Positions 16,772-60,794 of a stretch of 64,000 bases of DNA are shown one piece after another. The stretch is from Aegilops tauschii subsp. strangulata (lineage: Eukaryota > Streptophyta > Magnoliopsida > Poales > Poaceae). Where the stretch lies: assembly GCF_002575655.3 (NCBI RefSeq), contig NC_053040.3:150847148-150911147 (forward strand), read 5' to 3'. The notes beneath the pieces are model-generated. The model saw nothing but the letters and a program-made list of their open reading frames with translations, ran no database searches and had not been told where the DNA came from. The translations under genes and the position numbers were made by a program. Position 1 is the first letter of the stretch, and every line of letters begins with the position of its first letter.

Positions 16772-16897
16772 TGATGTCGCTTGAAACTACGTCGGTATTT
16801 CCCCAAAGAGCAAGGGATGATGCAGCACAGCGGCTGTAGGTATTTCCCTCAGATATGAAACCAAGGTTATCAAACCAGTAGGAGAACCAAGCAACAC
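16772..16897 (-). repeat. 5' LTR of the Sabrina-type element, first piece
   Basis: TGATGTCGCTTGAAAC onward matches 497-622. It is cut at AACAC (16893-16897), the left target duplication of the inserted LARD-type element, and continues at 21752. Confidence 0.92.
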
Positions 16898-17653
16898 TGT
16901 CGTGGTATTCTCACGGGGGGCTTGCGAGTCGACAGATGCCACAAGGGCTTAGTGTGAGGGTAAGACTGCTGCTGATAGGCCCGGGAGCGGGTATGCGTGT
17001 AGCACGCGCTAGTTTACCCAGGTTCAGGGCTCTCCGAAGAGATAACACCCCTACTCCTGCATGTCTGGGTATATGTGGTATATCTGTAGTACAGAGTGCT
17101 CCTGGAGCTGTATCTGAGCTTAGTGCCATAGGCATCTGGCTTTGTATATGTCTTATATATGTGTATGAGCTAGCTAGCAAGTGGGCATGAGAGAGCTCCA
17201 CCGTGAGTGGGCCTGGATGCATGCGTGTGTGTCAGCCTCCAGTGGATGGATGGATGGGTGGCATATATATAGGTGAGCTAGCTTACTACCTAAGCTAGGT
17301 AGTGGCGTGGGGGGCAAGTGGGCATGGGGCACCATGCCCATGATGGTGTGGACGTGATGTGCATGCCTCCTTGTCCTTGGTGCACTTTATAAAACAGTGC
17401 CCAGGGACAGATACACTATAGATGATGTCGTCGCGGTACAGCCGTCTCGTCCGCGGTATGGACGTCACGTCGGTGTCTTGTCGGTGTCGGGTCAGGCTGC
17501 AGTCGGTAGCCAGCTGGTTGGCGCAGTCGGCAGCCGGCCGGGCAGAGCAGTCGGACGGGGAGCCGGTAGTCGGACTGAGGGGCTTTGCTAGCCCCGATGT
17601 CTTGAATTATTGTCTCGCTGTATTCGGGGTATCCGTGGCCAATTACTCCGACA
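16898..17653 (-). repeat. 3' LTR of the LARD-like element
   Basis: 756 bp. On the minus strand it begins TGTCGGAGTAATTGG after the purine-rich GGAGGCTTGGGGGCTAC (17654-17670). It ends GAATACCACGACA. Confidence 0.9.
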
Positions 17654-20967: not shown

Positions 20968-20987
20968 CGCCCCACGGTGGGCGCCAA
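20968..20987 (-). other. Primer binding site of the LARD-like element
   Basis: Minus strand TTGGCGCCCACCGTGGGGCG directly after the LTR end at 20989. It fixes the 5' LTR as the high-coordinate copy. Confidence 0.88.
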
Positions 20988-20988
20988 C

Positions 20989-21751
20989 TGTCGTGGTATT
21001 CTCACGGGGGGCTTGCGAGTCGACAGATGCCACAAGGGCTTAGTGTGAGGGTAAGACTGCTGCTGATAGGCCCGGGAGCGGGTATGCGAGTAGCACGCGC
21101 TAGTTTACCCAGGTTCGGGGCTCTCCGGAGAGATAACACCCCTACTCCTGCATGTCTGAGTATATGTGGTATATCTGTAGTACAGAGTGCTCCTGGAGCT
21201 GTATCTGAGCTCAGTGCCATAGGCATCTGGCTTTGTATATGTCTCATATATGTGTATGAGCTAGCTAGCAAGTGGGCATGAGAGAGCTCCACCGTGAGTG
21301 GGCATGGATGCATGCGTGTGTGTCAGCCTCCAGTGGATGGATGGATGGGTGGCATATATATAGGTGAGCTAGCTTACTACCTAAGCTAGGTAGTGGCGTG
21401 GGGGGCAAGTGGGCATGGGGCACCATGCCCATGATGGTGTGGACGTGATGTGCATGCCTCCTTGTCCTTGGTGCACTTTATAAAACAGTGCCCAGGGACA
21501 GATACACTGTAGATGATGTCGTCGTGGTACAGCCGTCTCGTCCGCGGTATGGATGTCACGTCGGTGTCTTGTCGGTGTCGGGTCAGGCTGCAGTCGGCAG
21601 CCGGCTGGTTGGCGCAGCCGGCCGGGCAGAGCAGTCGGATGGGGAGCCGGCAGGAGCAGCCGGGCAGTCGGACTGAGGGGCTTTGCTAGCCCCGATGTCT
21701 TGAATTATTGTCTCGCCGTCTTCAGGGTATCCGTGGGCAATTACTCCGACA
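20989..21751 (-). repeat. 5' LTR of the LARD-like element
   Basis: 763 bp, same ends as 16898-17653. It differs mainly by a small rearrangement of a GCAGCCGG-rich stretch near 21590-21670. Confidence 0.9.
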
Positions 21752-25025: not shown

Positions 25026-25911
25026 TGTCGGCGTTCTGGGAACGGGGGTACCCAGACTTGCCTGCCTGCGGCCCACGACGTGGCTTTGTCCATGGCCCGG
25101 TACGGCCGAGCTTCAGCAACAACAACCCAAGACCCTCACGAGGGGCCAAGCCTCGTGAGGCGGACGACACCAAGACCTCCCTGGGGGGCGGCCTCGCTAG
25201 GCTGGCTCCCGAGGAGCAGAGATATCTATGCAATGTGCACCTCGCGAGGTTCATATGACGTGAGCCATGATGACCAAGGCCAGGCGGGCGCCAGCAGGCG
25301 CAGTGTACCAGTTTCCTCTTTTGTGCTAAGGAGGCAAGCGCATGTGCAGGGTCCCGAGGAATCGACTAAAGGTTCCCATATCGGTGCAACAAGACCAAGA
25401 CCGCCAGGACGGCAGGATGGAGGTCATCGCGGAGCCCACTGCAGCGTCAGCACCAGAGCCTTTTGCAGGCGAAGACTACTTTTGCCAGGATAGCTTGTAC
25501 TAGTTGTCTCCCTTCAAATTTGGCCATTGTGGGATCCCTTCCCGCCTACATTTGGGAAGAGGACCAATGCCACTATAAATAGGACTTAGCCACCACCATA
25601 GAGGGGGACGGATCGATTCCACCCTGACCACCTCACCAGCTCATCGAGCTCAAGAACACCTCACCTCCCGAGGCTGCTCAACAACTGTACTAGTTCATCC
25701 TCAGCCCCTCGAGGCAATCCACCACAAAGCTGGAGTAGGGTATTACACCGCAAGGTGGCCCGAACCAGGATAAACTGCTGTGTCCCTTGTCCCTTGGGTT
25801 TGTCGAGCTAGGGCGTGGAATCATTGAGCATGCAGATTGAGAGGGGAGAGTTCTTCGCACGCACCCCAGAGTTTGAACCTCTCAAGGGTCTACGGAACCC
25901 CGAATCCGACA
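25026..25911 (+). repeat. 5' LTR of element B
   Basis: 886 bp from TGTCGGCGTTCTGGG to CGAATCCGACA. The first 148 bp recur at 32738-32885. It contains the perfect-ended CCTCACGAGG / CCTCGTGAGG inverted repeat near 25134-25161. Confidence 0.9.
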
Positions 25912-27088: not shown

Positions 27089-28545
27089 GTGCCAACCTCG
27101 CCCCGGACCAAGAGGAGGCATTGGTGAGCTTCCTGCGTGCGAACAAGGAAGTGTTCGCCTGGGAGCCCAAGCAGCTAGTTGGGGTCCCGAGGGGGATAAT
27201 CGAGCACCACCTGAGGGTGTGCCCTAACGTACGCCCGGTGAAGCAGAAGGCACGGTGGCATTCCACGGAGAAGCAGTCCTTCATCGTCCAGGAAACTCGC
27301 AAACTACAAGAAGCTTGCGTCATCCGCGAGGTGTGGTACCCGGAGTGGCTGGCGAACCCAGTTGTTGTGCTCGAGAAAGGCGGGAAGGAACACATGTGTG
27401 TCGACTTCACCAACCTCAACAAGGCCTGCCCTCAAGACCCGTTCCTGCTTGCATGCATTGATCAGATCGTCGACTCCACCGCCGAGTGCGACCTGCTGTG
27501 TTTCTTAGATGCCTTCTCGGGCTACCACTAGATCAAGATGGCGGTACAAGACGTTGAGAAGACAGCCTTCTTGACCCCATGTGGGGTGTACTGCTATATC
27601 TGCATGCCGTTCGAGCTACGTAATGTTGGGGCGACCTTCCAGCGGCTGATGCACATCGCCCTAGGCCGGCAGCTCGGGAGGAACGCTGAGGCCTATGTCA
27701 ACGACATCGTGGTGAAATCTCGGGAGGCAAGGACCCTCATCCAGGATCTAGAGGAGACATTCGCTAGCCTGCGCAAGGTGGACCTACGGCTCAACCCGGA
27801 GAAATGTGTGTGGTGTCCCCTCCGGTAAGTTGCTGGGTTTCCTTGTGTTGCACAGAGGAATCGAGGCGAACCCGGAGAAGGTCAAGGCAATAGAAGAGAT
27901 GAGCCCACTCCAGACTCTCAAGGAAATGCAAAAGCTGGTAGGCTGCGTGACTTCACTGGGGCGCTTCATCTCCAAGCGAGGGGAGCGCGCCCTCCCGTTC
28001 TTCAAGCTGATGAAAAATAAGGGCCCATTCGAGTGGACTCTGGAGGCGGACGGGGCGTTTCAAGACCTCAAGAGATACCTCACCATCCCACCAGTGATGG
28101 TGGCGCCGCGTCCCCTCGAGCCCCTGGTGCTTTACCTGGCCGCCACGCCTCACGCCGCTAGCGCAGCGCTGGTGGCCGTCCGGGAGGAGCGCCAGACCAA
28201 GTGTCTGCCACACGGCGCCGTGCGTTCGGTCGAATGATGCAGCACGAAGGCGACGCCCCTGAAGCCACGGTGGCGCATGCGGATGACCAGCCTCCACAAG
28301 ACGGCGCTCTTGAGGCTGCAGTTGCCCCAACGGGCGCCCGAGCTCCTGAGGTCCCCCAGCCTCAGGAGGTGCCCCCGCCTCAGGAGGTCTCGGACCCCAC
28401 CAACACTTCCGCCCTCGTTGAGCACCCGGTGTACTTTGTCAGCACAGTACTGCGTGATGCGCGGGCACGCTACCCCATGCCGTAGAAGCTTCTGCTCGCG
28501 CTCCCCGTTGCCTCGTGCAAGCTGCGCCACTACTTCCAAGGCCAC
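26980..28545 (+). pseudogene. Element B reverse transcriptase and first RNase H, broken
   Basis: Linker and RT: GIIEHHLRVCPNVRPVKQK, EWLANPVVVLEKGGKEHMCVD, LCFLDAFSGYH, then TAG at 27529 where Gln is expected, then the fingers and palm (EKTAFLTPCGVYCY). The active site reads YVND at 27694-27705 in place of YVDD. A frameshift near 27820 leads to LLGFLVLHRGIEANPEKVKAIEEM and the RNase H tether (RFISKRGERALPFFKLMK, LYLAATPHAASAALVAVREE). Another frameshift and TAG at 28483 follow. The enzyme would copy the RNA genome; this copy cannot. Confidence 0.9.
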
Positions 28546-29183
28546 CCCAATAAGGTCGTCTCAGCTTACCCGTTGGAGAGGGTGCTCCCGAGTCCCAATG
28601 TTGCGGGAAGGGTCGCAGAATGGAACATCGAACTGCAGGCATTCCAGCTGGAGTTTAGCACCACCAGGGTCATCAAGGGTGTCGCGCTCACCGACTTCGT
28701 GGCGGAATGGACCGATGCTCCAGGGCCTGAAGCGGGCGAGGACTGGTCCCTCTCGCCAGGGAGCGAGGCACCGGACAGCTGGGTCATGTACTTTGACGGC
28801 GCCTTCGCACGTCAGGGCGCGGGGGCTGGAGCCATGCTCATCTCGCCCACCCAAGACAAAATGTATACTATGTCGTGCAACTCTGCTTCCAATGTGGCAA
28901 GAAGGTCTCCAACAACATCGCAGAGTACGAAGGCTTGATCGCCGGCCTCAAGGCCGCGGCCGCTATGGGCGTGAAGCGCCTCACCATCAAGGGCGACTCC
29001 CAGCTCCTCGTCAACTTCTCCAACAAAGTGTACGAGCCGAAGGATGAGCACATGGAGGCATACCTGGCAGAGGTACGCAAAATGGAGAAACAATTCTTGG
29101 GCCTGGAGCTGCAGCACGTACCTCGCGGCACGAACAAGGAAGCCGATGATATCACCAAGAGGTCGTCCAAGCGCCAACCATAG
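28546..29183 (+). pseudogene. Element B second (archaeal-type) RNase H
   Basis: WVMYFDGAFARQGAGAGAMLI (first Asp), a frameshift near 28880, then NIAEYEGLIAGLKAA (Glu), KGDSQLLVNF (Asp), HVPRGTNKEADDITKRSS (last Asp region). A domain of this kind after the normal RNase H marks the Tat lineage. TAG at 29181 ends the frame where the polyprotein should continue to integrase. Confidence 0.87.
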
Positions 29184-29217
29184 GAGCTCGGCGTCTTCGA
29201 GGAGCGGCTCTTCAAGC

Positions 29218-30593
29218 CTTCGGCAAACCCTCCGGCCGCGGAGTCAACACTGCCTCAGGAGGAGCTTCCCCTGCCACCAGCCTCGGTAGCCCCCGCCTGC
29301 GGCCCGACCTCAGGAGCATGCCTGCTCCTCGCGCTCAAGACTCAGGAGGGGTGTTGGACCGAAGAATTCAAGGCGTACCTGCTACAGGGAACCCTACTGG
29401 AGAAGGAGGAAGGTGCGGAGCGCGTGGCTCGGTAGGCCACAACCTACTGCATTCAAGACAGTGAGCTATACCGAAAACGACCAAACGATGTTTCCTTGCG
29501 ATGCATCTCCAGGGAGCAAGGGTCTAAGCTGTTAACTGACATACACGGCGGATACTGCAGACATCACTCGTCATCGCGCACCTTGGTGGGCAAGGCGTTC
29601 CATAGCGGATTCTACTGGCCCACGGCACTCAACGACACAACCGAGCTGGTGAAGTCATGAGAAGCATGCCAGTTGCATGCCAAGCAAATCCACCAGCCTG
29701 CTAAGGGCCTCCAGACTATCCCGCTCTCGTGGCCGTTTGCGGTCTGGGGGCTGGACATCTTGGGTCCTTTCCCTCGAGCACCCCGGGGCTACCGCTACCT
29801 CTACGTCGCCATCGACAAGTTCACCAAGTGGGCGGAGGTGGAGCTAGTACATACCATCCCGGCCGGCTCGGCATTCAAGTTCATCAAGGGCCTCATGAGA
29901 CGATTCAGAGTCCCTAATCGCATCATCACCGCCAACGGCTCGCAGTTTACTTGCAATCTCTTCAAAACATATTGTGCTAATCTTGGAACGCAGATATGAT
30001 ACACCTCAGTGGCGCACCCCAGGAGCAACGGCCAAGCCGAGCGCGCAAACGCAGAGGTCCCGAGGGGCCTCAAAGCAAGGATTTTCAAGAAGAAGCTCAA
30101 AGCCTGCTGCAGGGGCTGGCTGTAGGAGCTCCAGTCCGTGTTGTGGTCCATCCGCTCCACCCTGACCAAGCCGACCGGCGAAACTCCATTCTTCCTCGTC
30201 TACGAAGCTGAAGCGATTCTCCCACATGAGGTCAGGCATCACTCTGCGCGGGTCTTGGCGTTTGACGAGGCATGCTAGGACGCCACGCGGGGGATGGACC
30301 TCGTGTTGGGGGAGGAACGCCACCGTCAAGCCTCACTCCGAGCGGCAAGGTACCAGCAGGTGCTGCGGCGGTATCACTGCTGCAGCGTTCGCTCCAGGAC
30401 TCTCGAGGTGGGCGATCTCGTCCTACGGCGGGTGCTCTCCAGGGAAGGGCTACATAAGCTTTCACCCATGTGGGAGGGCCCGTTTAGGGTCGCCCGCGTC
30501 TCCAGGCCTGGCGCCGCGCGCCTGGAGACGCAGGACGGGATCCCCATCCAGAACGCCTCGAACATCCAGCACCTCAGGAAGTTCTACCCATGA
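29218..30593 (+). pseudogene. Element B integrase, broken, catalytic Asp lost
   Basis: The zinc-binding N-terminus is recognisable (TDIHGGYCRHHSSSRTLVGKAFHSGFYWPTAL), with TAG at 29433 and TGA at 29659 in place of an expected Cys. The core starts WGLDILGPFPRAP (first Asp intact). The second Asp is Ala (IITANGSQF, 29931-29933). The Glu region (SNGQAERANAE, about 30030) is in another frame. The C-terminal part (30294-30593: RSRTLEVGDLVLRRV, WEGPFRVARVSRPGAARLE, HLRKFYP) is intact and gives the natural end of pol at 30593. Confidence 0.9.
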
Positions 30594-31548
30594 AGCAAGC
30601 CCCAATGCCTGTGAAGGTCTCCGCTTGTGAAACTCTCACGTAACAATGAGTGGGGCTGTACACGCCCCAGAGTCTCCGGAGAGCCGCCCTCGGGCCTCGG
30701 GGGCTCCCTCCCACGTCCTAGTGGCAGCACTTAGCTCCGTGCTGGTGAGAAGACTAGAGTAGGTGCCGGACGCGGCTGTTCATTTGCTTGCTTTCTGTAG
30801 TTGGTTTGTGATGCTTTTAATGAATTTTTGAGTTCACGCGTTTTCAGTTGTCAAGTCAGCTTTCCCCTTCGTCTTTTCTCTTGCACTTTGGTTGGGCCCA
30901 GGAGGAGCGGCAGTAGCCCGTCACTCTTCCTTGCGCGTCTCGCGCGTCTCGCGCGCGGGGGCTAGTGCAGGCGTGTGCGTGCGACGGGCTTGCCCCGCGC
31001 CGCAAACACGCTTTGCCATAGCCCTGCTCCCCCAGAGCTTTGCCTTTTTCTATCCTCGCGAGATGCCCTCGAGTAAGCTCATGATCTACGTACCCTCTTG
31101 AAGTCCATCCCCCCCGGGTACTGCGACGCGGTGCATTAAGCCACGACCAGCTCATGCCTGAGGGCTCACGCAAGGAAGAATAAGACATCCGACAAAGTTT
31201 TCTAACAACTCCGCAGCTTCATGATGCCTACTGAGGTTGATGACTTTCGAGCCGCCAGCAAGGAGGGCCTCACCAGATAATGAAGTGCGCGCTCTCGCAA
31301 GGAGGGAAACTACCGCAAGTGTATCAAGCTAAGTTATCCTACCATACCCCTTTGGAGCACGAACACCGCAGCATAACGTCGGAACGATAAACATAGCATA
31401 ACAGCATAAAAACCTCGGTTCATTACACGCCCCCGTGGGGCCCTCTACCTTTTTTTCAAATGCAGGAAGAAAGGAAAGGTTAAACAAAAGCGGCCTGCAC
31501 AACCACAGCAGCTCACGAGGCATGGCTCCAAGGGCCCCCGTACTCAGC
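30594..31548 (+). other. Element B spacer between pol and the antisense gene, no gene seen
   Basis: About 950 bp of untranslated sequence. It would hold the 3' ends of both the pol transcript and the antisense transcript. Short ORFs such as minus 30856-31188 have no family resemblance. Confidence 0.65.
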
Positions 31549-32390
31549 TCAGCCCGAGCCTTCCTCGCGCTTCACCGGAGCGTGGCGACGGGACGACCCG
31601 CCACCGTCCTCGAAGCGAGCCCGGCATCGTGGCGGCTGGTCATAGCCGCCGCTGCTGGTGCTCTCGCTGGAGGAGGAACCGCCGCCGCTGGATGAGCCGC
31701 GGCCATCGCCAAAGGAAAGCTCGCCCTCAGTGTCGTCACAGCCATTGTCAAAGCCAAGCTCGTCATCACCGCCGCTGTCTTCGGGGCAGCACCCTGCGCG
31801 ACGACCGTCTTCCCCAAACACCCTCACGTAGAGGGTCGCGATGCCGTCAAACTTGAAGTGGAGGGTGGACCTCCTGCTCAGGCCGCGCACGCGGGCGAAC
31901 GTTTGCCAGCAGCGGGCCAGGGCCATGTTGCCCGTGACGGAAACCTCCACCGCGTCCCACGAGGCCTTGCTGCAGCAGCCGTCGGCTTGCAGCCAGAGGC
32001 TGTCAAGACCCATGGCTGGCAGCTCGCCGGCAAAGGAGCACATGAGCTGGAGCCAGGCGCCGTCCAGCCTCTCCAACCACACGACGAACTCCAGGAACAC
32101 CTCCGCCAAGTGGAAGCACGGCCGGGGAGGCCGGGCAACCACGGCGCACCTCCCTTCGGCACAGGGGTGCCTCGCCCCGGGCGGCTCCCGTCGCGAGAAG
32201 AAACACCTCTGCGGCCACCAAGGACGACGCCGGTCCCTGAAGGAGTGCGCCCGCGCCCCCGAGGAGCCGCAGCAGGGGTCGCGGTGTGCTTAGGGGGGCG
32301 GCCCCGTCCTCTCTTGGGTGGCGGTGAGCCGGGTCCCTCCTGGCGAGCCTTCCCGTTCTCTGCTCCAGAGAACCTCCTAATCGGCGCCAT
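31549..32390 (-). pseudogene. Antisense gene of element B: AT-hook plus B3-like domain, acidic Ser-rich tail (frameshifted)
   Basis: Starts at Met 32390 (MAPIRRFSGAENGKARQEG), about 100 bp after a TATA box on this strand. Residues 26-35 read KRGRGRPPKH, a canonical AT-hook (R-G-R-P core, minor-groove binding), followed by RGRGRTP. A frame change at about 32140-32180 (indel or unrecognised intron) leads to a B3-like domain of about 100 residues: EVFLEFVVWLERL, SLWLQADG, WDAVEVSVTG, RCWQTFARVRGLSRRSTLHF, TLYVRVFG. The tail is Asp/Glu/Ser-rich (SSSGGGSSSSESTSSGG) and ends at 31549. B3 domains bind DNA in plant transcription factors. The pairing and function here are inference. Confidence 0.7.
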
Positions 32391-32485
32391 GGGAGTTACA
32401 ACAAGATGGAGAGACAAGGAAGAAGAAGAAGAAGAAGCGGACTGCGGGAAGACAGATATGAGCAAGGGGGCTCCGCCCCTCCCCT

Positions 32486-32496
32486 CATTTATAGCC
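32486..32496 (-). promoter_or_regulatory. TATA box of the element B antisense gene
   Basis: Minus strand GGCTATAAATG, about 100 bp before Met 32390. Spacing fits transcription start near 32460 and a leader of about 70 bases. Confidence 0.6.
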
Positions 32497-32737
32497 AAGA
32501 GGAGGCCAACCGCTGGCCTCCATGATCACACATAACGATGGTTTTTCTCTGCATGCAGCAGAGTCTTGTCAAGTCGAGCGGTTGCCGAGGCAGCGTGGGG
32601 AAGCGGAGGCGCCCACGTCCCATCAATCACCACGCGTCGACTGAGGCCGGAGGCGGTTGGGGCCCGCGGCGCTCCGCCCTTGCCCTTTAGCTTCGCCCCG
32701 AAGCCAAGTTCGAGCGCGCCTTGGGCCCATGGCTTAC

Positions 32738-32885
32738 TGTCGACGTTCTGGGAACGGGGGTACCCAGACTTGCCTGTCTGCGGCCCATGGCGTGGCTCTG
32801 TCCATGGCCCGGTACGGTCCAGCTTCAGCAACAATGACCCAAGACCCTCGCGAGGGGCCAAGCCTCGCGAGGCGGACGACACAAA
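32738..32885 (+). repeat. 3' LTR of element B, truncated
   Basis: Matches the first 148 bp of 25026-25911 (TGTCGACGTTCTGGG onward) and stops after GGCGGACGACAC. Sabrina-type LTR sequence in inverted orientation follows at once. Confidence 0.9.
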
Positions 32886-32886
32886 A

Positions 32887-32971
32887 ACTTAGTAAAGCCC
32901 ACAAATATCCAAAACAGATAATATAATAGCATGAATACTTCATAAATTATAGACACGTTGGAGACGTATCA
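32887..32971 (-). repeat. Inverted head fragment of a Sabrina-type LTR (85 bp)
   Basis: Reverse complement of about 34629-34713, with a few differences, ending exactly at the LTR terminus TGATACGTCTCC (read on minus). No purine tract adjoins it, unlike every proper 3' LTR of this family in the window. Confidence 0.8.
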
Positions 32972-49968: not shown

Positions 49969-49975
49969 TTATAAG
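49969..49975 (+). promoter_or_regulatory. TATA box of the element A antisense gene
   Basis: CCTTTATAAGG, 85 bp before the Met at 50054. Same spacing class as in elements B and C. Confidence 0.6.
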
Positions 49976-50053: not shown

Positions 50054-50703
50054 ATGGAGAAAGGGAATCCTGGTCTTTCGACGGTGGCGGCGAGGGTCGC
50101 CGCTCGACAGCGTGTCCCTCCTCCTCCTGAGCCCGCGGTGGTGGAGCCTGCCGCGAGGGGAAGGGGCGAGGCCGTGGGCGAGGCCGGGGCAGAGGTCGTA
50201 GTGCTCGGGGAAGAGGAGGACGGGGCGGCGCGCCGGCTTCGCCCCCGCCAATGATGCCTTTTCCGATGGAAGGCCATGTCGGAGACCAGCCCCGCGAGTT
50301 CTTCATCAGGCTGCGCCGGCCTCCGCATCGCCGTCTTCGTCTTCCCGCCCCGTTTGCTCAGGAGATGGAGCGTGACCCGCCCCAATCCCTCAGATTGCAC
50401 ATGAGGGGCTGTGGGAATGGGGGCACGCGGGTCGATGTCGACTTCCCGGCTCCTCGGGTCATGTACCTCCGTCGCGGATGGAAGACGTTTGCTCGCATCC
50501 ACAGCCTGACGGTGGGGCTCGTCCTCTACTTCAAATTAATGGAGGACGGCCTGCTCTCCGTCAAGGTCTTCGGAGACTTCGGGACTCGCCTGAAGTGCTG
50601 CGTGGAGAGCTCCTCCGATGGAGATTCCGACGATGGAAGCTCTTCCTCGAGCGAAAGTGACGAGGAGGATAGCGGGGCAGATGATGGGGACGAGTCCGAC
50701 TAG
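50054..50703 (+). pseudogene. Antisense gene of element A: Arg-Gly-rich segment plus B3-like domain, acidic Ser tail (frameshifted)
   Basis: Met at 50054 (MEKGNPGLSTVAARVAARQRV) opens a frame that must shift at about 50130-50180 to reach the rest: an RGRGRGR-type run resembling AT-hook or RGG motifs, then from about 50250 a B3-like domain: REFFIRLRR, LRLPAPFAQEMERDPPQSLRL, RVDVDFPAPRVMYLRRGWKTF, ARIHSLTVGLVLYFKLMEDG, LLSVKVFGDFG. The tail SSSDGDSDDGSSSSSESDEE is acidic and ends at 50703. The GW-x-x-F...L-x-x-G...L-x-F order is the B3 pattern. Without the shift, the 150-codon frame from Met 50251 still encodes the full B3 part. Confidence 0.72.
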
Positions 50704-51955: not shown

Positions 51956-54900
51956 TTATGGGTAAAACTTGCGAAGATGCTCGATGTTCCAGGAGTTACT
52001 CACTGGGACAACATCTTTGGTCTCCAGGCGGACTGCGCCAGGCCTGGTGACTCGTATTACCCGATAAGGGCCTTCCCACTTCGGCGTCAACATGTTGGAA
52101 TTCTTGGCCGACTAAACGCGCCAAAGAACAAGGTCGCCTTCCTCAAAGCTTCGGGCATGAACCTTGCGGCTATGGTAGCGGCGCAAGGGTTGCTGGTAGC
52201 GTGCTGCTCTCACAGCCGCCCGAAGACGATCTTCCTCAAGGAGCGTCGCGTCATCTTGGCGCAACTGCTCTTGCTCAAGCTTGTCATAAGCGAGCACTCG
52301 AGGTGACCCGTATATGAGTTCCATGGGGAGAACTGCTTCCGCCCCGTATACCAGGGCAAAAGGTGTCTGGCTGGTGGCTCGATTTGGCGTCGTCCTGATC
52401 GACCAAAGAACCGCCGGCAACTCATCAATCCAGCGCCTTCCACTCTTGTGCAGCTTGTCAAAGGTCTTTGTTCTCAGGCCTCGCAACACTTCAGCATTTG
52501 CCCTCTCCGCTTGGCCGTTGCTCCATGGGTGTGCCACGGAAGCAAAACAAACCTTGCTACCGAGGTCTTGAATGTATTGCATGAAGGTGTGGCTTGTGAA
52601 CTGCGTGCCGTTGTCGGTGATGACTCTGTTTGGCACACCAAAACGGCAGACCAGTCCCTTGAAGAACTTGACGGCCGACTGAGCAGTCACCTTTCTCACT
52701 GCTTCCACTTCCGGCCACTTTGTGAACTTGTCAATCGCAACGTACAAGTACTCAAAGCCCCCGACGGCGCGGGGGAAAGGGCCCAGTATATCGAGCCCCC
52801 AGACCGAGAATGGCCAGGAGAGAGGGATTGTTTAAAGGGCTTGAGCTGGTTGGTGAAGCTTCTTTGAATGGAACTGATACACTTCACACTTGGTTACTAG
52901 TGCCGTCGCATCCTGGAGGGCAGTGGGCCAGAAGAAACCTTGCCGGAACGCCTTTCCGACAAGGGCCCTCAACCCTATGTGGGAGCCACATATGCCTCCA
53001 TGTATCTCTGCCAACAGCTCCAGTCCTTCCTCCCGGGGGATGCACTTCAGTTTCACACCATTCGGCCTTCTCCTGTACAGGATGTCATCGACGAACTGGT
53101 ACAGGGCGGACCGACGGGCTACTTTCTCCGCTTCTTCCTGCTCCTCAGGAAGCTCCCCTATTTGGAGGAATTGGACGGTATGCTGCGCCTGAGGCTCGAC
53201 GGCAAGGACCAAAGGCATCTCTTCCGCCATGGGAGCAGCTATCTCTACGGCCAGGGCTTGATGCCCTGCCGGACCCAGTTGCTCTTGGGCAGGCCCAGCA
53301 TGCGCGGCAGCACCCTTGCCGGCAGCCCCAGGGGGCTCGGTAGGAAAGTACTTGCTGGGACCTTACTTCCTCCGCTTGTTCTGCCTCGTTGATGGCTCGA
53401 CGGATGGTTGAGTTAACCGGAGCAAAAAGGTACCTGGTTCCACATGTAGCTTGAATGCAGCACGCTTTGACAGGTAATCGGCGATGTTGTTCTCCATTCG
53501 GGGGACGTGCTCCGCTTGGATACCGTCAAAGCGTTCCTCCAGTTTCCTCACCTCATCTACGTAGGCCTCCATCAATGGGCTCTGGTAATCCTTGTTGACC
53601 TGCCTAACAACAAGCTGCGAGTCACCCCTGACGATGAGCTTCTTAACCCCGAGGTCTGTCGCGATCCTGAGACCGGCGAGCAATCCCTCGTACTCAGCAG
53701 TGTTGTTGGTGGACTTCTCCCTGGGGAAGTGCATCTGGATCACGTACTTGAGGTGCTCTCCGGTGGGCGCGACGAGCAGCACACCGGCACCGGCGCCTTG
53801 CAGCGAGAAAGCCCCATCAAAGTACATGATCCAGTCGCGGTCTGCTTCCTTGCCGGGGAGAGTGGTCTCCTGGATTTCTTCGTCAGGCGTTGAGGTCCAT
53901 TCTGCAATGAACTCCGCCAAGACTCTGCTCTGGATTGTCGAGGTACTTTCAAATTTCAAACCAAAACTGGACAACTCCAAGGCCCATTCCACAATCCTTC
54001 CGGTCGCATCTGGGTTATGCAGTATCCGTTGCAACGGGAGGTGGGTGATGACAGTGATCTCGTGGGCTTGGAAGTAATGACGCAGCTTCCTCGAGGCCAT
54101 AAGGAGGCCGAAGAGCAATTTCTGCACGCCGGAGTACCTCGATCTCGCTCCCCGCAAGAGGGAGCTGACAAAGTAAACCGGGTGCTGCATCATCTTCTTC
54201 TTCTGCACCACCTCACTCGACTGCGCGGGCACTGCCTTGGTGGCATCAGACTCTGCCGGGGGCCTCGCCTTGCCGGCACCAGGCCCTGTCGGGGGAATCT
54301 TTGGCTTGCCATCCACTTGTTCTGCCGCCGTCACTGGTTCCTCGTCGACCTCCCTCTATGCCACCAGTGCGGCGCTGACCACCTGATTCATCGCCGCCAG
54401 ATACAGCAGCAACGGCTCTTGTGGTTTAGGCGCAACCAGTATTGGCGTGGAGGAAAGGTATTTCTTCAGATCCTGCAATGCTGCCTCGGCTTCTGGGGTC
54501 CACTCCATTGGGCCTGCCTTCTTCAAGATTTTGAAGAAAGGAAGGGCGCGCTCGGCAGACTTGGAGATGAATCGGCTCATGGCGGCGACGCAGCCGGTGA
54601 GCCGACGCACATCCTTGATCCGCTTGGGCGCCTCAATCTACTCAATAGCCTTGATTTTGTCTTGTTTTGCCTCGATCCCGCGTTGCGACACAAAGAACCC
54701 GAGAAGCTTGCCGGACGGAACGCCTAAGACACACTTTTCAAGGTTCGGCTTGAGGTTGATCTTGCGCAGGTTGGCAAATGTCTCTTCCAGATCTTGCACA
54801 AGAGTCGCCTCGTCTTTGGTTTTGACCACTATGTCATCCATGTACGCCTCCATATTTCTATGGACCTGAGGTTCGAAACCAATTTGGACTGCTCTTGCAA

Positions 54901-55644
54901 ATGTCAAGCCAGCACTCTTCAACCCGAAAGGCATCCGTAAAAAGCAATACGTACCACATGGGGTGATGAATGTTGTCTTTTCTTCATCTTCTCTTGTCAT
55001 GAAGATTTGGTGGTAGCCCGAGTAGGCGTCGAGGAATGACAACAGATCACACCCGGCTGTGGAGTCGACAATCTGGTCGATGCGCGGCAATGGGAAGGGG
55101 TCCTTAGGACAAGCCTTATTGATATATGTGTAGTCAATACACAGCCTCCACTTCCCATTCGCTTTGCGCACCACTACCGGATTGGCCAACCACGTCGGGT
55201 GGAGCACTCCTCTCACCAAACCTGCCGCTTCCAACTTCCTAATCTCCTCTGTGATGAACTCCTGCCTTTCCAGAGCCTGCTTTCTGACCTTCTGCTTGAC
55301 GGGCCGCGCATGAGGACAGACAGCTAGGTGGTGCTCAATCACCTCCCTGGGAACGCCGGGGATGTCGGATGCTTGCCACGCAAACACGTCGACATTCGCC
55401 CACAGGAAGGTGACGAGCACGCCTTCCTATTTGTTGTCGAGGGTGGAGCCTATGGTGAAGGCCCCTCCCATGCCATCCTCCCTGATGGACACCTTCTTGG
55501 TCTGCAGCGGCTCAGCTCTGGATTTCTTGCTCTTGCTGGTAGAGCTCTATGGCATGTCCTCGACGGTAGTAAAACACTCCGAGGAGGTGCGCTTGCCGGA
55601 GTGGGTGCGAGAGGTCTTGCCGGGCTTCTTCTTCCCTCCCGGGC
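51956..55644 (-). pseudogene. Element A pol: RT, two RNase H domains, integrase; one frame with seven stops
   Basis: A single minus-strand frame of about 1,229 codons without any frameshift, ending HLRKFYP-stop at 51956. RT: GVPREVIEHHLAVCPHARPV, CIDYTYINKACPKDPFPLPR, active site YMDD intact at 54833-54844. RNase H tether and domain follow, then the archaeal-type RNase H with WIMYFDGAF, NTAEYEGLLAGL, VRGDSQLVV and NNIADYLSKRA, all DEDD residues kept. Integrase: zinc region with EIHGGICGSHIG, core WGLD, TDNGTQF and NGQAERANAE, complete DDE. Stops: TAG at 55547, 55427, 54638, 54356 and 52112, TAA at 53363 and 52832. Only these nonsense changes inactivate it. Confidence 0.9.
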
Positions 55645-56870: not shown

Positions 56871-56989
56871 AGGGGAAGGAGGGGGAGCGGCGGAGCACGC
56901 ACGCCCCTCCACCCCATTCTTTCCTCCTTCCTCTTCCTCTCATCGTAGCGCCTCCAAGCCACGCTCAGCGCTGCAGTGGTTCGTCTCCA

Positions 56990-59900
56990 ATGAGCTCATC
57001 TTCCAACCCCACGCCCCCCATGGCGTGCTCCGGAGCATGGGACGGCTCCGAAGTTCATGATGACCACATCGACTTTCTCCACCAGACGCGGCGGCTGCCC
57101 AGCAAGGACTACGTGAAGGTCCGCCTCGCGCCGGAGAGGGAGATCTCGCCAGTGCCGGAGGAGGGCGAGCGGGTCGTCTTCCGCTCGCACTGCCTGCGCG
57201 GCCTCGGCCTGCCGGCGAGTGGCTTCTTCCGGTCCTTCCTCGAGTTCTACGGTCTTCAGTCGCACCACCTTACCCCGAACACGGTGGTGCTGCTGTCTGC
57301 CTTCGTCACTCTGTGCGAAGGCTTCCTCGGCGTCCTCCCCACCATCGAGCTTTGGGGGGAGTTCTTCTACACCAACCTCGGCACCCTCGTCGCGGGCGTG
57401 CCGGCTCAATGCGGCGCTTTTATTGCGATGCGGAGGCCGGCAGCCGAAAATCTGTTTCCTCCCATCACGCTGATCAAGTCGGTGAAGATGTGGCAGCGAT
57501 CGTATTTGTACATGAAGAGCGTCTTCCCGGAGGGCGACTGGGTCAACTTGCCGGCTTACGTAGCCGGTCCGCCGGCTGGGAGGCGGCCCAACTGGTCGTA
57601 CCGGGCCAAGACACTGTCGCCTTCCAGAGCCGCCGCCATCGCGCGGCTCCGGGTGCTGACACAGTCGGAGGGCCTGATCGGGCCCGATTTGCTATCCGCC
57701 TTTGTGGCGCGCCGGGTGCTCCCGCTCCAGGGCCGCCCTCACATGATCTGTCAGATGAGCAGGCATCGGGACCCAAGCCGGCTGTGCACCAAGGAGATGC
57801 CTCACGCAGAGGTAGCTCACATGGTGAACTACCTTGCGAACTGCGAGCTCATGGAGGAGTGGCGGTTTGGCAAGGAGCCGTATTCCCGTGCCGACCCCCC
57901 GCCTATGGTAGGTTATCTTTCTTTTTTCTTCTATCTTTTTTGTTGCCGAGTTCTGCCTGCCCAACCTAACCAATCGACCTTTGAACAGAGCCCCCTCCTC
58001 CAGCCGGCCGCCGGCGCCGCGGGGCCGGAGTGTCAGTTCCTCCCCGACCGAGCAGAGAGCGACGTGGATGACCCCGACTTGGGGGAGGCGGCCTTGGAGG
58101 ACGACACCGAGGGGGGAGGCGGCAAAGCAGGCGGCTCGAGGCTCGAAGCCGGCCTCGAGGACTGGCCCGACGATGATGTGGGGGAAGTCGCCCCGCGCCA
58201 CCAGCCAGGGTCCGGCCAGCCGGGCGTGAGCTCATTTGCCGCGCCGGATGCCCAAGGTGGTGCGAAAAAACGCAGGGCCGCGCCGAGCTTGTTTGGCAGC
58301 CGGTCGAACAAGTCCAAGGGCTCGGCCGCGTCGACTAAGCGGGATGAAGCAGCTGCGAAGGCCATCCGCTTCCGCAAGGCGGTGAAGGAGCCGCAGCTGG
58401 TTTCCGCGTAAGTACTGCCTTCATCTCGTACTTTCTCCTTCCTTGCTGATCTTGTTTGAGTTTCTTTGCTTTGTTTCCCTTGATCTAGGGCTCCGCTTTC
58501 TCTTGAGAAGTCGGCCGCCGCCTCCATCATGGGGTCGGCGGAGACTTCCACCACCACTCGGCGGATCGATCCGGCCGCCGACCTCCAGGAGGCGACGGAG
58601 CGGAACGCACGGGAAGCGCGCGAGGAGCAGGAAGCCGCCCACCTGGAGAAGGCGGAAGCGGAGAAGGCGGAGGCCGCCACCCTGAAGAAACTGGCGGAGG
58701 CCAAGGCAGCTGGCGTGGCAAAGAAGCAAGACGAGGAGGCCGCCCGTCGCCAGTCGGCGGTGTTCGTTACTCCCCTGAACTCCGCGCCGCCATCACCGGA
58801 GTTCGTGGTGCAGACTGGGGAAGCCGGCGGCGAGCACCCCGTCATGGAGAGGGACAGCGGCGACGTCGCCATGCCGGACGTAATCGTGCCTCCACCGCCA
58901 CCATCCGGGAACGTGCAAGGCGAGCAGCCGGCGGACCCGCCGGTGCCACCAGCCGGAAACAAGGTGGTGACGGGCCCGACTCCTGAGGTCTGCACACCAA
59001 CGCGCCACCGGCGTGCAAAGGCGGCTTTGGCGCCAAGCCCACTGGAGACCGGCGCCGCAAGCTCCTCGATCCTGGACACCGAGGCGACCAGCGCCGCGCC
59101 CACTAGGTGGGTGCGGGGCGGCGGGACGGGCCCTCTGAACAAGGCGATCCTGGACGTTCAAGCCAAACTCCGCGCCAAGGCCGACGCTATCAAGCACTGC
59201 AACAAGGCGTTCCTGCAATCGCGAGAGGCCATCCGGGTATGCTTCTTGCTTCTTCGTTTTTAACTCTTGTATTGCTTCGGGGGGGGGGGGGCGCGTCAGC
59301 GCACCCACTAGGTGTAGTCCCCGAGCCTCGGGCCGGCTGCTGAGCAGGCGGCTCGGAACTTTAATTAGCAGGTTCTGAGTGTTGATATCCTTGCTGCAGG
59401 ATTATCATAACCTCCGTGCGGCCGCCTTCAACTCCAAAGTCCAGGAGTTGGATCAACGTGCTGTCGACTTGTTGGAGAGCCAGAGTAAGTCTTCTTCTTT
59501 CTCTGCGGGGGCGCGCTGGCGCACCCGCGGGCTGTAGTCCCCGAGATTCGGGCCGACTGCTGAGCAGTCGGGCCGGATCTCCCCGGCAACTGCTCTTCTT
59601 TTCTGCTGGTTACTGACGCCTTTCCCTTCTTCTTTTCTCTGCAGAGGCCAACGCCGCCTTGCAGCAACAGCTGGGCGAAGCCAACACTGCGCTGCGCACT
59701 AAGGAGGAGGAGTGCGGCATGCTGGCTGAAGAGCGTGACCGGCTGGTCGCGCAACTAGCGGAGCAGGCGGAGCTTCTCAACAAGGCCCAGAAGGAGGCGG
59801 AGGACAAGGAGACCAGCCTCCTTGCTGAGTTCGTGACCGAACGCTCCGCCTGGACTGACAAGGAGGCGATGCTGTCTTCCGGCTTTCACGAGATCAAAGA

Positions 59901-60794
59901 CATAGTTGATGGTGAGCTTCCCTCTTTTCCCTTCTTTGAGCTACCGGCTGTTGGTCGAGCCGGCCTGTCGTCTCTGACTTTGGCTTTTTGCTTTCTATTT
60001 GGATCAGACTTCTTCCCTAGTCATTCTGACGCCGCCAATCAGGCCATCGAAGCTGATCGCGAAGGACGGAGGGCGGAAGGTGCACAGATCGCTACCGACG
60101 CCCCCGGACCCTTGGTGAGCAGCTCCTAAGCATCGAGGCCCGTCTTCGGCCGGCTCACCGGATGTTGCGCCGTCTTCAGCGTGTCGGCGCCCAGGCGATC
60201 GCCGCCCTGTGGCCGGACATGCCGGCACCGCGCACTCCCAGTCGGACTGCCCACTGGCTGGAGGTGGCGGCCGGCCATCTTGAGGCCTGGAAGGGCTCCT
60301 CGGCCCGGGCTGGAGCGCGCCGGGCCTTGGAATTCGTCAAGGCGTGGTACCCTGGGCTAAGTCTAGCCCAGTTAGCCACGTTTCGGCTAGAGGCTCAGGA
60401 GGAGTTGGCGGTCGTGGAAGATGACCTTGTCAAGCGAGCGGCGGCAATCGCCGAGTACACCGACACCAGCGTCTTCGTCCCGGAGCGAGCCGAAAACGGC
60501 GCCGAGGCGCCACCAGAATGGTTCAGGCTGAGCCCGGAGGACGGCGAGGACTCGGCCGAGGTGATCGACTCCAGCGGCGAGGAAGAAGGCGAGGAGGAGG
60601 AGGAAGGCGAAGAGGAGGCGCCAAAGGTCGGAGCGGACGGCCAACCTCAGCTCGACCGCGCCTCCAGCAACGAGCCACGCCCAAGCGAGTCGGCTACCAC
60701 CGGAGGCGACCAAGCGGAGACTGACCAGCCGGCCGCTCCACCAACCGGCGCCACCGACTCCTCTGATCCATCGAACCCGTCTACTGCTCCCTAG
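56990..60794 (+). CDS. Antisense gene of element C, putative gypsy-type transposon (PF04195-like) protein, about six exons, with a late frameshift
   Basis: Exon 1 (56990-57906) starts MSSSSNPTPPMACSG and shows the family core: EEGERVVFRSHCLRGLGLPA, FRSFLEFYGLQSHHLTPNTV, CEGFLGVLPTIELWGEFF. A GT...AG intron (57907-57988) precedes exon 2 (to 58407, acidic and Gly-rich). Exon 3 (58489-59236) has an Ala/Glu/Lys coiled coil (EREAREEQEAAHLEKAEAEK-like). Short exons follow at 59400-59486, 59646-59910 and 60008 on, continuing the coiled coil. A one-base shift near 60100 is needed to reach GEQLLSIEARLRPAHR, LRRLQRVGAQAIAALWP and the acidic tail ending 60794. Such genes occur antisense in Tat elements; the function is unknown. 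Exon edges are by eye. Confidence 0.75.
59280..59600 (+). repeat. Two intronic copies of the GCGCGTCAGCGCACCC repeat
   Basis: Copies at 59280-59370 and 59503-59600, each inside an intron of the antisense gene, match the tandem units at 18345-18835. The first begins with a 12-G run (59280-59291). Confidence 0.8.

Follow-up and report, generated by a model that had tools for sequence, protein, structure and literature searches.

The window, the whole 64,000-nucleotide stretch of Aegilops tauschii subsp. strangulata DNA that was analysed, harbors a degraded Gypsy element of the Tat type. Between the end of its pol and the start of its 3' LTR lies a broken copy of an accessory gene that reads on the opposite strand. 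The features of the element and of this antisense gene are as follows:

~25.0-32.9 kb, + strand: host element, a degraded Gypsy with dual RNase H, Tat-type
25028..25910, + strand: 5' LTR of the host element (3' boundary inferred; matches the LTR found upstream of the antisense gene in copies)
27532..30593, + strand: degraded pol with RT, RNase H, a second RNase H (RVT_3) and integrase
27532-27828, + strand: RVT_1 (domain search)
27752-28237, + strand: RT_RNaseH_2 (domain search)
28797-29183, + strand: RVT_3 (domain search)
29661-29999, + strand: rve (domain search)
31549..32390, - strand: accessory gene in antisense, a broken copy that begins with the ATG at 32390, ends with the stop at 31551-31549 and carries a single frameshift in the linker
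32253..32390, - strand: N-terminal piece with a MAP..RFS..KGK motif and an AT-hook (KRGRGRPPKH); inner boundary approximate
31786..32112, - strand: B3-type domain (..EFVVW...WQTFARVRGL...TLHFKF...LYVRVFGEDGRRAGCC); boundaries set by its alignment with the second family described below
31552..31785, - strand: acidic, Ser-rich tail and basic C-terminus with VKREE; inner boundary approximate
32488..32493, - strand: TATA box (TATAAA) of the antisense gene, read from the sequence; the word is common in copies
32550..32557, - strand: RY-type word TGCATGCA upstream of the TATA box, read from the sequence; its core is common in copies
32738..32882, + strand: start of the 3' LTR of the host element, interrupted after 32882

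RT_RNaseH_2, RVT_3 and rve follow one another on the + strand, giving the element the two RNase H domains that mark the Tat lineage; a second such domain between RNase H and integrase (INT) is described for the angiosperm Ogre/Retand types (PMC6317226). The RT_RNaseH_2 match reaches 27.3 bits, under its cut-off of 29.8. The 5' and 3' LTR pieces share 92.5% identity over 146 bp. Pol stops at 30593, leaving a pol-to-3' LTR stretch of about 2.1 kb (30594-32737), which falls outside the 2,933-6,566 bp given for this region in Retand (PMC11963269). Transposase_28 (PF04195) was found in none of 18 ORF pieces of the host element, seven of them from the pol-to-LTR stretch, and is absent among the families listed for 61 and 51 members of the antisense B3 family; an Rfam scan of the window at gathering scores returned no matches. 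Two further repeats lie in the window. Positions 32889-32971 and 34711-34629, directly past the interrupted 3' LTR, are inverted copies (96% over 83 bp) and perhaps the ends of an inserted element, and a 765-bp direct repeat (16896-17653 and 20987-21751, 95%) is likely the LTR pair of another short element.

In the window copy, the AT-hook PPPKRGRGRPPKH lies in the frame of an ORF at 31878-32525 (- strand) and the B3-like part in an ORF at 31549-32289 (- strand). The AT-hook frame (32390 to ~32151) and the B3 frame (~32178 to 31552) overlap in the linker, which is the frameshift site of this copy. An earlier note on this DNA had described a gene opposite to pol, behind its own TATA box, that reads an AT-hook and, past a frame change, a B3-like domain. 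This description holds, with the pol domains on the + strand, the two frames and TATAAA on the - strand, and the frame change now placed in the linker; the pairing of AT-hook and B3, which that note did not know as a retrotransposon product, recurs in stop-free family members that read both parts in one frame. By itself, the window copy scores weakly: 14.4 bits with the Pfam AT_hook model (cut-off 17.4) and 12.1 bits with the Pfam B3 model (E 0.2, cut-off 30.1), and a PDB search with its protein as a single sequence gave no match at E≤10. The B3 assignment cannot rest on this copy by itself, and it is the family that carries the proof.

A protein search found 135 homologs of the window copy at E≤0.01, the best at 4e-86. 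Full-length members (P0058, P0052 and P0031) read MAP..RFS..EKGK..KRGRGRPRKH (or near), B3 domain and Ser/acidic tail in a single frame. The majority of the 120 listed relatives lie on short contigs whose sources are of metagenome type and which may represent plant DNA in environmental samples; among viral contigs scanned with P0058, 13 stretches fit a pattern and none was a relative. A search of the Ae. tauschii genome (4.10 Gb, 692 contigs) with P0058 gave 20,977 first-look candidates, and all 147 that were scored matched. Sixty places (every other row of the first ~119) and eight further loci made up a sample of 68 loci, 64 of them distinct. A stop-free frame runs through the AT-hook and B3 parts of 41 of these 64 copies and stops interrupt the other 23, a share that is uninformative on the whole family, the copies having been chosen by similarity to one intact protein and not at random. 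The stop-free frames span 246-328 codons (median 265) and keep the ATG at the start motif in 37 of 41 cases, with four having lost it. The other five frames of these copies, which were preselected as stop-free in the named frame, average 1.5-7.8 stops per copy.

The arrangement seen in the window is that of the family. Among the 64 copies examined, the INT end of pol was found in 58 and lies on the strand opposite to the gene in every one; an LTR lies upstream of the gene in 63 of 64, its start a median of 335 bp from the ATG (60 copies). The gene, itself about 0.8 kb long, ends a median of 875 bp from the end of pol (36 stop-free copies). Distances between copies of the gene correlate with those between their LTRs (Mantel r 0.73, 37 copies, LTR-anchored rows) and between their INT pieces (r 0.49, 25 copies), with none of 999 permutations reaching r in either case; the antisense gene thus travels with the element. 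A Mantel comparison of the gene with a flank of fixed length had given r = 0.0003 (432/999); that flank was badly aligned and was replaced by the LTR-anchored rows.

The copies also bear the mark of purifying selection. Once 24 loci with stops (L001 and L009 being the same place) and three duplicate loci were removed, the 820 pairs among the 41 stop-free copies gave a dN/dS of 0.224 (jackknife SE 0.007; mean dN 0.136, mean dS 0.609), so the ratio near 1 that would have spoken against the earlier note's reading was not found. As a yardstick, the INT C-terminus at the 3' end of pol in the same elements gave 0.170 (38 of 58 pieces, stop-free and >200 nt), and in the 25 copies having both, INT stood at 0.184 and the antisense gene at 0.217; the constraint on the gene is close to that on the 3' end of pol. 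With increasing divergence the ratio declines, from 0.56 (four pairs at dS 0.05-0.1) to 0.21 (364 pairs at dS 0.6-1), as one would expect were active lineages under constraint and inserted copies left to decay. Per 15-codon segment, dN/dS is 0.16-0.21 in the first 30 codons, 0.12-0.29 in the B3 part and 0.17-0.52 in the tail, and 0.37 in the segment that holds the AT-hook end and the linker following it. Fourfold sites are 65% identical between copies, and 72% outside CpG contexts; CpG decay may inflate dS.

The remaining frames give ratios of 1.40-1.58, except the mirror frame on the other strand (0.268), in which third positions face those of the gene. With a low ratio in both, dN/dS alone cannot name the strand. 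The mirror frame carries 4.3 stops per copy and is open in one of 41 copies, and stops and homology together identify the antisense gene as the coding one. These results bear on two explanations that need no working protein. The antisense RNA itself might matter, through dsRNA or interference with the sense transcript; such a role has been discussed (PMC7264820) and would agree with the conserved antisense TATA box, but it does not account for one frame having a dN/dS of 0.22 and being stop-free in 41 of 64 copies, and we consider it very improbable. Still harder to credit is a host-gene fragment carried passively and without function: LTR elements are known to pick up pieces of genes (PMC7264820) and the window copy is indeed broken, but pol-like constraint, conservation of the promoter and the presence of a homolog in a second element family all speak against it.

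The identity of the central domain was assessed by profile. The family profile aligned with 60 B3 places of the same genome (60 of 150 scored places, from 8,624 first-look candidates) at 97.7% and E 1.4e-12 (hhalign), and at 97.0% when the four closest places (L127, L121, L114 and L117) were left out; 20 column-shuffled family profiles reached at most 28%. Two places of this comparison set, L121 and L127, turned out to belong to, or adjoin, the second element-linked family. The best PDB match by profile was 1yel (At1g16640), with E values of 2.4e-4 and 1.5e-4 in two profile searches; At1g16640 is a B3 protein of the REM family (PMC2688026). The B3 score that the earlier note had proposed to look for was found, PF02362 being listed at E≤1 for 59 of 61 members (best 3.8e-6) and 51 of 51 members (best 1.3e-5). 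Single members stay under the Pfam B3 cut-off of 30.1 bits (P0058 at 15.5; L007 at 18.1, its match spanning positions 14-99 of 101), and precomputed PF02362 assignments are attached to four of the 120 listed relatives. By profile homology, then, the domain of the antisense protein is of the B3 type.

The AT-hook core RGRP is present in 29 of the 41 stop-free copies, with KRGRGRPRK exact in 19, and the core is also present in the window copy. A GRP core with basic flanks is thus in place; the score of the window copy remains under the curated cut-off of Pfam AT_hook, and this model is listed at E≤1 in only 15 of 51 members (best E 0.011). Past the CCP motif, 40 residues of the tail average 9.7 acidic, 1.8 basic and 7.4 Ser residues (39 of 41 copies). 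Near the C-terminus a K and an E are conserved, and 35 of the 41 stop-free copies have [VILM]KxE, which resembles a SUMO site, among their last 12 residues. Together, AT-hook, B3 domain, acidic Ser-rich tail and basic C-terminus form a layout that fits a chromatin-bound regulator.

For the layout and promoter sets, four duplicate loci were removed; L051 and L056, which have no start motif, were left out of the promoter set and the window copy was added, giving 63 copies. A TATA word lies upstream of the gene in 61 of these, the window's included, mostly between -84 and -93. From -400 bp to +30 bp of the ATG, a stretch that takes in the LTR start, copies are 81% identical over retained columns, against 65% at fourfold sites, so that this stretch looks more constrained than those sites. 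This separate promoter bears on the possibility that the protein acts at integration or nuclear entry, binding DNA or chromatin and steering or importing the pre-integration complex. Co-inheritance of the gene with INT and a layout apparently suited to chromatin binding would both agree with such a role, and roles in nuclear entry and retrotransposition have been discussed for such proteins (PMC7264820); a TATA promoter of its own, however, suggests expression uncoupled from gag-pol, and we think this explanation unlikely.

An RY-type word (CATGCA/TGCATG) occurs in the antisense promoter of 59 of 63 copies, including the window's, and lies 60-64 bp from the TATA word in 53 of the 57 copies having both; its CATGCA core is kept with different flanks in two groups of copies. 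The earlier note had also suggested that the gene could encode a regulator of the element's own LTR; in the LTR the word was found in only six of 63 rows, plus once in the window's own 5' LTR. As a specially conserved site it was rejected, words such as CTTCCC and GTTGGC/TGGCCT being equally conserved. The best-conserved words of the promoter stretch at 32500-32610 include CTTCCCCA and GTTGGCCT, close to the antisense TATA box. RY sites are where host B3 proteins of the VAL type recruit silencing. Possibly, the element's protein could act as a decoy or antagonist of host B3 repressors, occupying sites that they use for silencing the element. Its B3 domain is nested among the sampled B3 places of the genome and the RY word, the site of ABI3-family B3 domains (PMC2688026), is present in most of its promoters; but the word is rare in LTR rows and is not the most conserved one, and the specificity of REM-type domains is described as unanswered, VRN1 binding without sequence preference (PMC2688026). 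We regard this decoy role as quite improbable. Since other words are as conserved, RY is rare in the LTR and REM specificity is unanswered, a self-regulating RY site is to be taken as a lead only.

A second gene of this kind lies in the window, in another Tat-type element:

50131..50703, + strand: second antisense B3 gene (Pfam B3 34 bits, above the cut-off of 30.1)
52112-55426, - strand: pol of the second element, dual-RNase-H (RT_RNaseH, RVT_3, rve)

This second gene has a stop-free frame, is 91% identical to P0168 over 112 residues and has a TATA word at 49970. Upstream and in the same frame is an Arg/Gly-rich stretch (GRGRGRGR..); the ATG nearest the TATA word (50055) lies in another frame. 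The B3 places nearest to the first family are L127 and L121, which are close to each other. L127 belongs to a many-copy family of ~149-aa B3 proteins with 219 relatives at E≤0.001; among the 120 of these that are listed, 20 are Ae. tauschii nr entries named as B3 proteins. The two B3 genes of the window share 34% over 109 residues, ungapped, and the profiles of their families align with each other at 99.1% (E 9e-19), while the RT, second RNase H and INT pieces of their elements share 56, 48 and 67%. Searched alone against the PDB, the second family's profile gave no match with a B3 chain at E≤1.

A tree was built from 82 B3 domains over 88 columns, with L077 as its root and 58 B3 places besides the two element families. 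It recovers each family as monophyletic (support 100 and 98, with L121 and L127 counted with the second) and joins them at support 100. The joined families adjoin L117, L114 and L094 (support 94, 100 and 91), which appear REM-like by the look of their B3 stretches. With the two families forming one clade inside the sampled B3 tree, the simplest reading suggests one capture of a REM-like B3 gene before the families split. The earlier note had offered capture of a host regulator as one possibility. That idea is supported by the profile match and by the tree of sampled B3 places, in which the nearest branches are putative host genes. Derivation from TRP28 found no support (blastp best E 0.068). 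Elsewhere in the window, an open frame at 56873-58411 (+ strand) carries Transposase_28 (74.6 bits), a typical Retand antisense product, and is probably part of a third Tat-type element; past it, at 58484-60129, are coiled-coil-looking frames in which no family scores above its cut-off.

Tat elements with an antisense gene between pol and the 3' LTR have been described before (PMC7264820, PMC11963269). TRP28 is found in 97% of Retand clusters, with a predicted DNA-binding product and a proposed regulatory role (Vicient 2025, PMC11963269), and gene23 of Grande has its own promoter and a nuclear product (PMC7264820). The origins of such genes are given as unknown in these accounts, and no relatives outside elements are reported there (PMC7264820, PMC11963269). 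The present gene shares with the Retand TRP28 ORFs its antisense position between pol and 3' LTR, its Tat-type Gypsy host and a predicted DNA-binding product; it differs in carrying B3 and AT-hook, B3 not having been noted among the domains named in PMC11963269, and in its shorter pol-to-LTR stretch (~2.1 kb, compared with 2.9-6.6 kb). It is likewise an antisense accessory gene between pol and 3' LTR, as are Grande gene23, RIRE2 and Retand aORF-3R, but is set apart from these, by their description in PMC7264820, in having plant B3 kinship where they have no clear relatives.

The closest precedent is a single sentence in a survey of 121 angiosperm genomes, which mentions B3 in Gypsy LTR-retrotransposon consensuses of Ae. 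tauschii (PMC9289625). These share with our elements the occurrence of B3 in Aegilops Gypsy-type LTR elements and are probably one or both of the present families; orientation, AT-hook, promoter, selection, lineage and origin are not given in that sentence. At1g16640 (1yel), as the top PDB profile match, and L117, L114 and L094, as the nearest branches outside the element families, have the B3 domain in common with the antisense protein, the latter three being compared by their B3 stretches only. Among the matches listed in open-licence literature, judged by titles and opening lines of abstracts, no description was found of the AT-hook pairing, orientation, promoter, selection or origin of such a gene. 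Antisense genes in Tat elements and B3 in Gypsy consensuses were known.

Taking these lines together, we propose, and consider reasonably probable, that the antisense gene of this family of Tat-type Gypsy elements, driven by a TATA promoter of its own on the strand opposite to pol, specifies a nuclear AT-hook protein that binds DNA and descends from a plant B3 regulator, probably of the REM type. We infer that the gene is transcribed and translated and that its product enters the nucleus and binds DNA. The AT-hook would tether the protein to AT-rich DNA or chromatin, with the B3 domain adding affinity or specificity and the acidic Ser-rich tail contacting host factors. In the manner of retroviral accessory regulators, the protein would then control how the element, and its antisense promoter too, are transcribed. 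Such transcriptional regulation appears the most likely role, ahead of integration or nuclear entry and of interference with host B3 repressors.

A bolder reading, which we put forward tentatively as possible, is that a Tat lineage domesticated a REM-type B3 factor once, added an AT-hook, placed the gene in antisense under a promoter of its own and maintained it by selection through a split into at least two abundant families. The protein would then be a trans-acting manipulator of host B3-based control, and many annotated Aegilops 'B3 genes' would be parts of mobile elements. P0110, P0134 and 19 other Ae. tauschii nr entries, named 'B3 domain-containing protein Os03g0212300-like' or similar, belong to the element-linked families.

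No function has been settled for the antisense genes of Tat elements; the relative visible here is a plant B3 domain. This kinship makes both an activity (DNA binding) and an origin (capture of a REM-like gene) accessible to testing, and many stop-free copies are at hand for tests of selection. It also calls for caution with Aegilops entries named 'B3 domain-containing protein Os03g0212300-like', which, like P0110, P0134 and the 19 similar entries, may be element genes annotated as host transcription factors.
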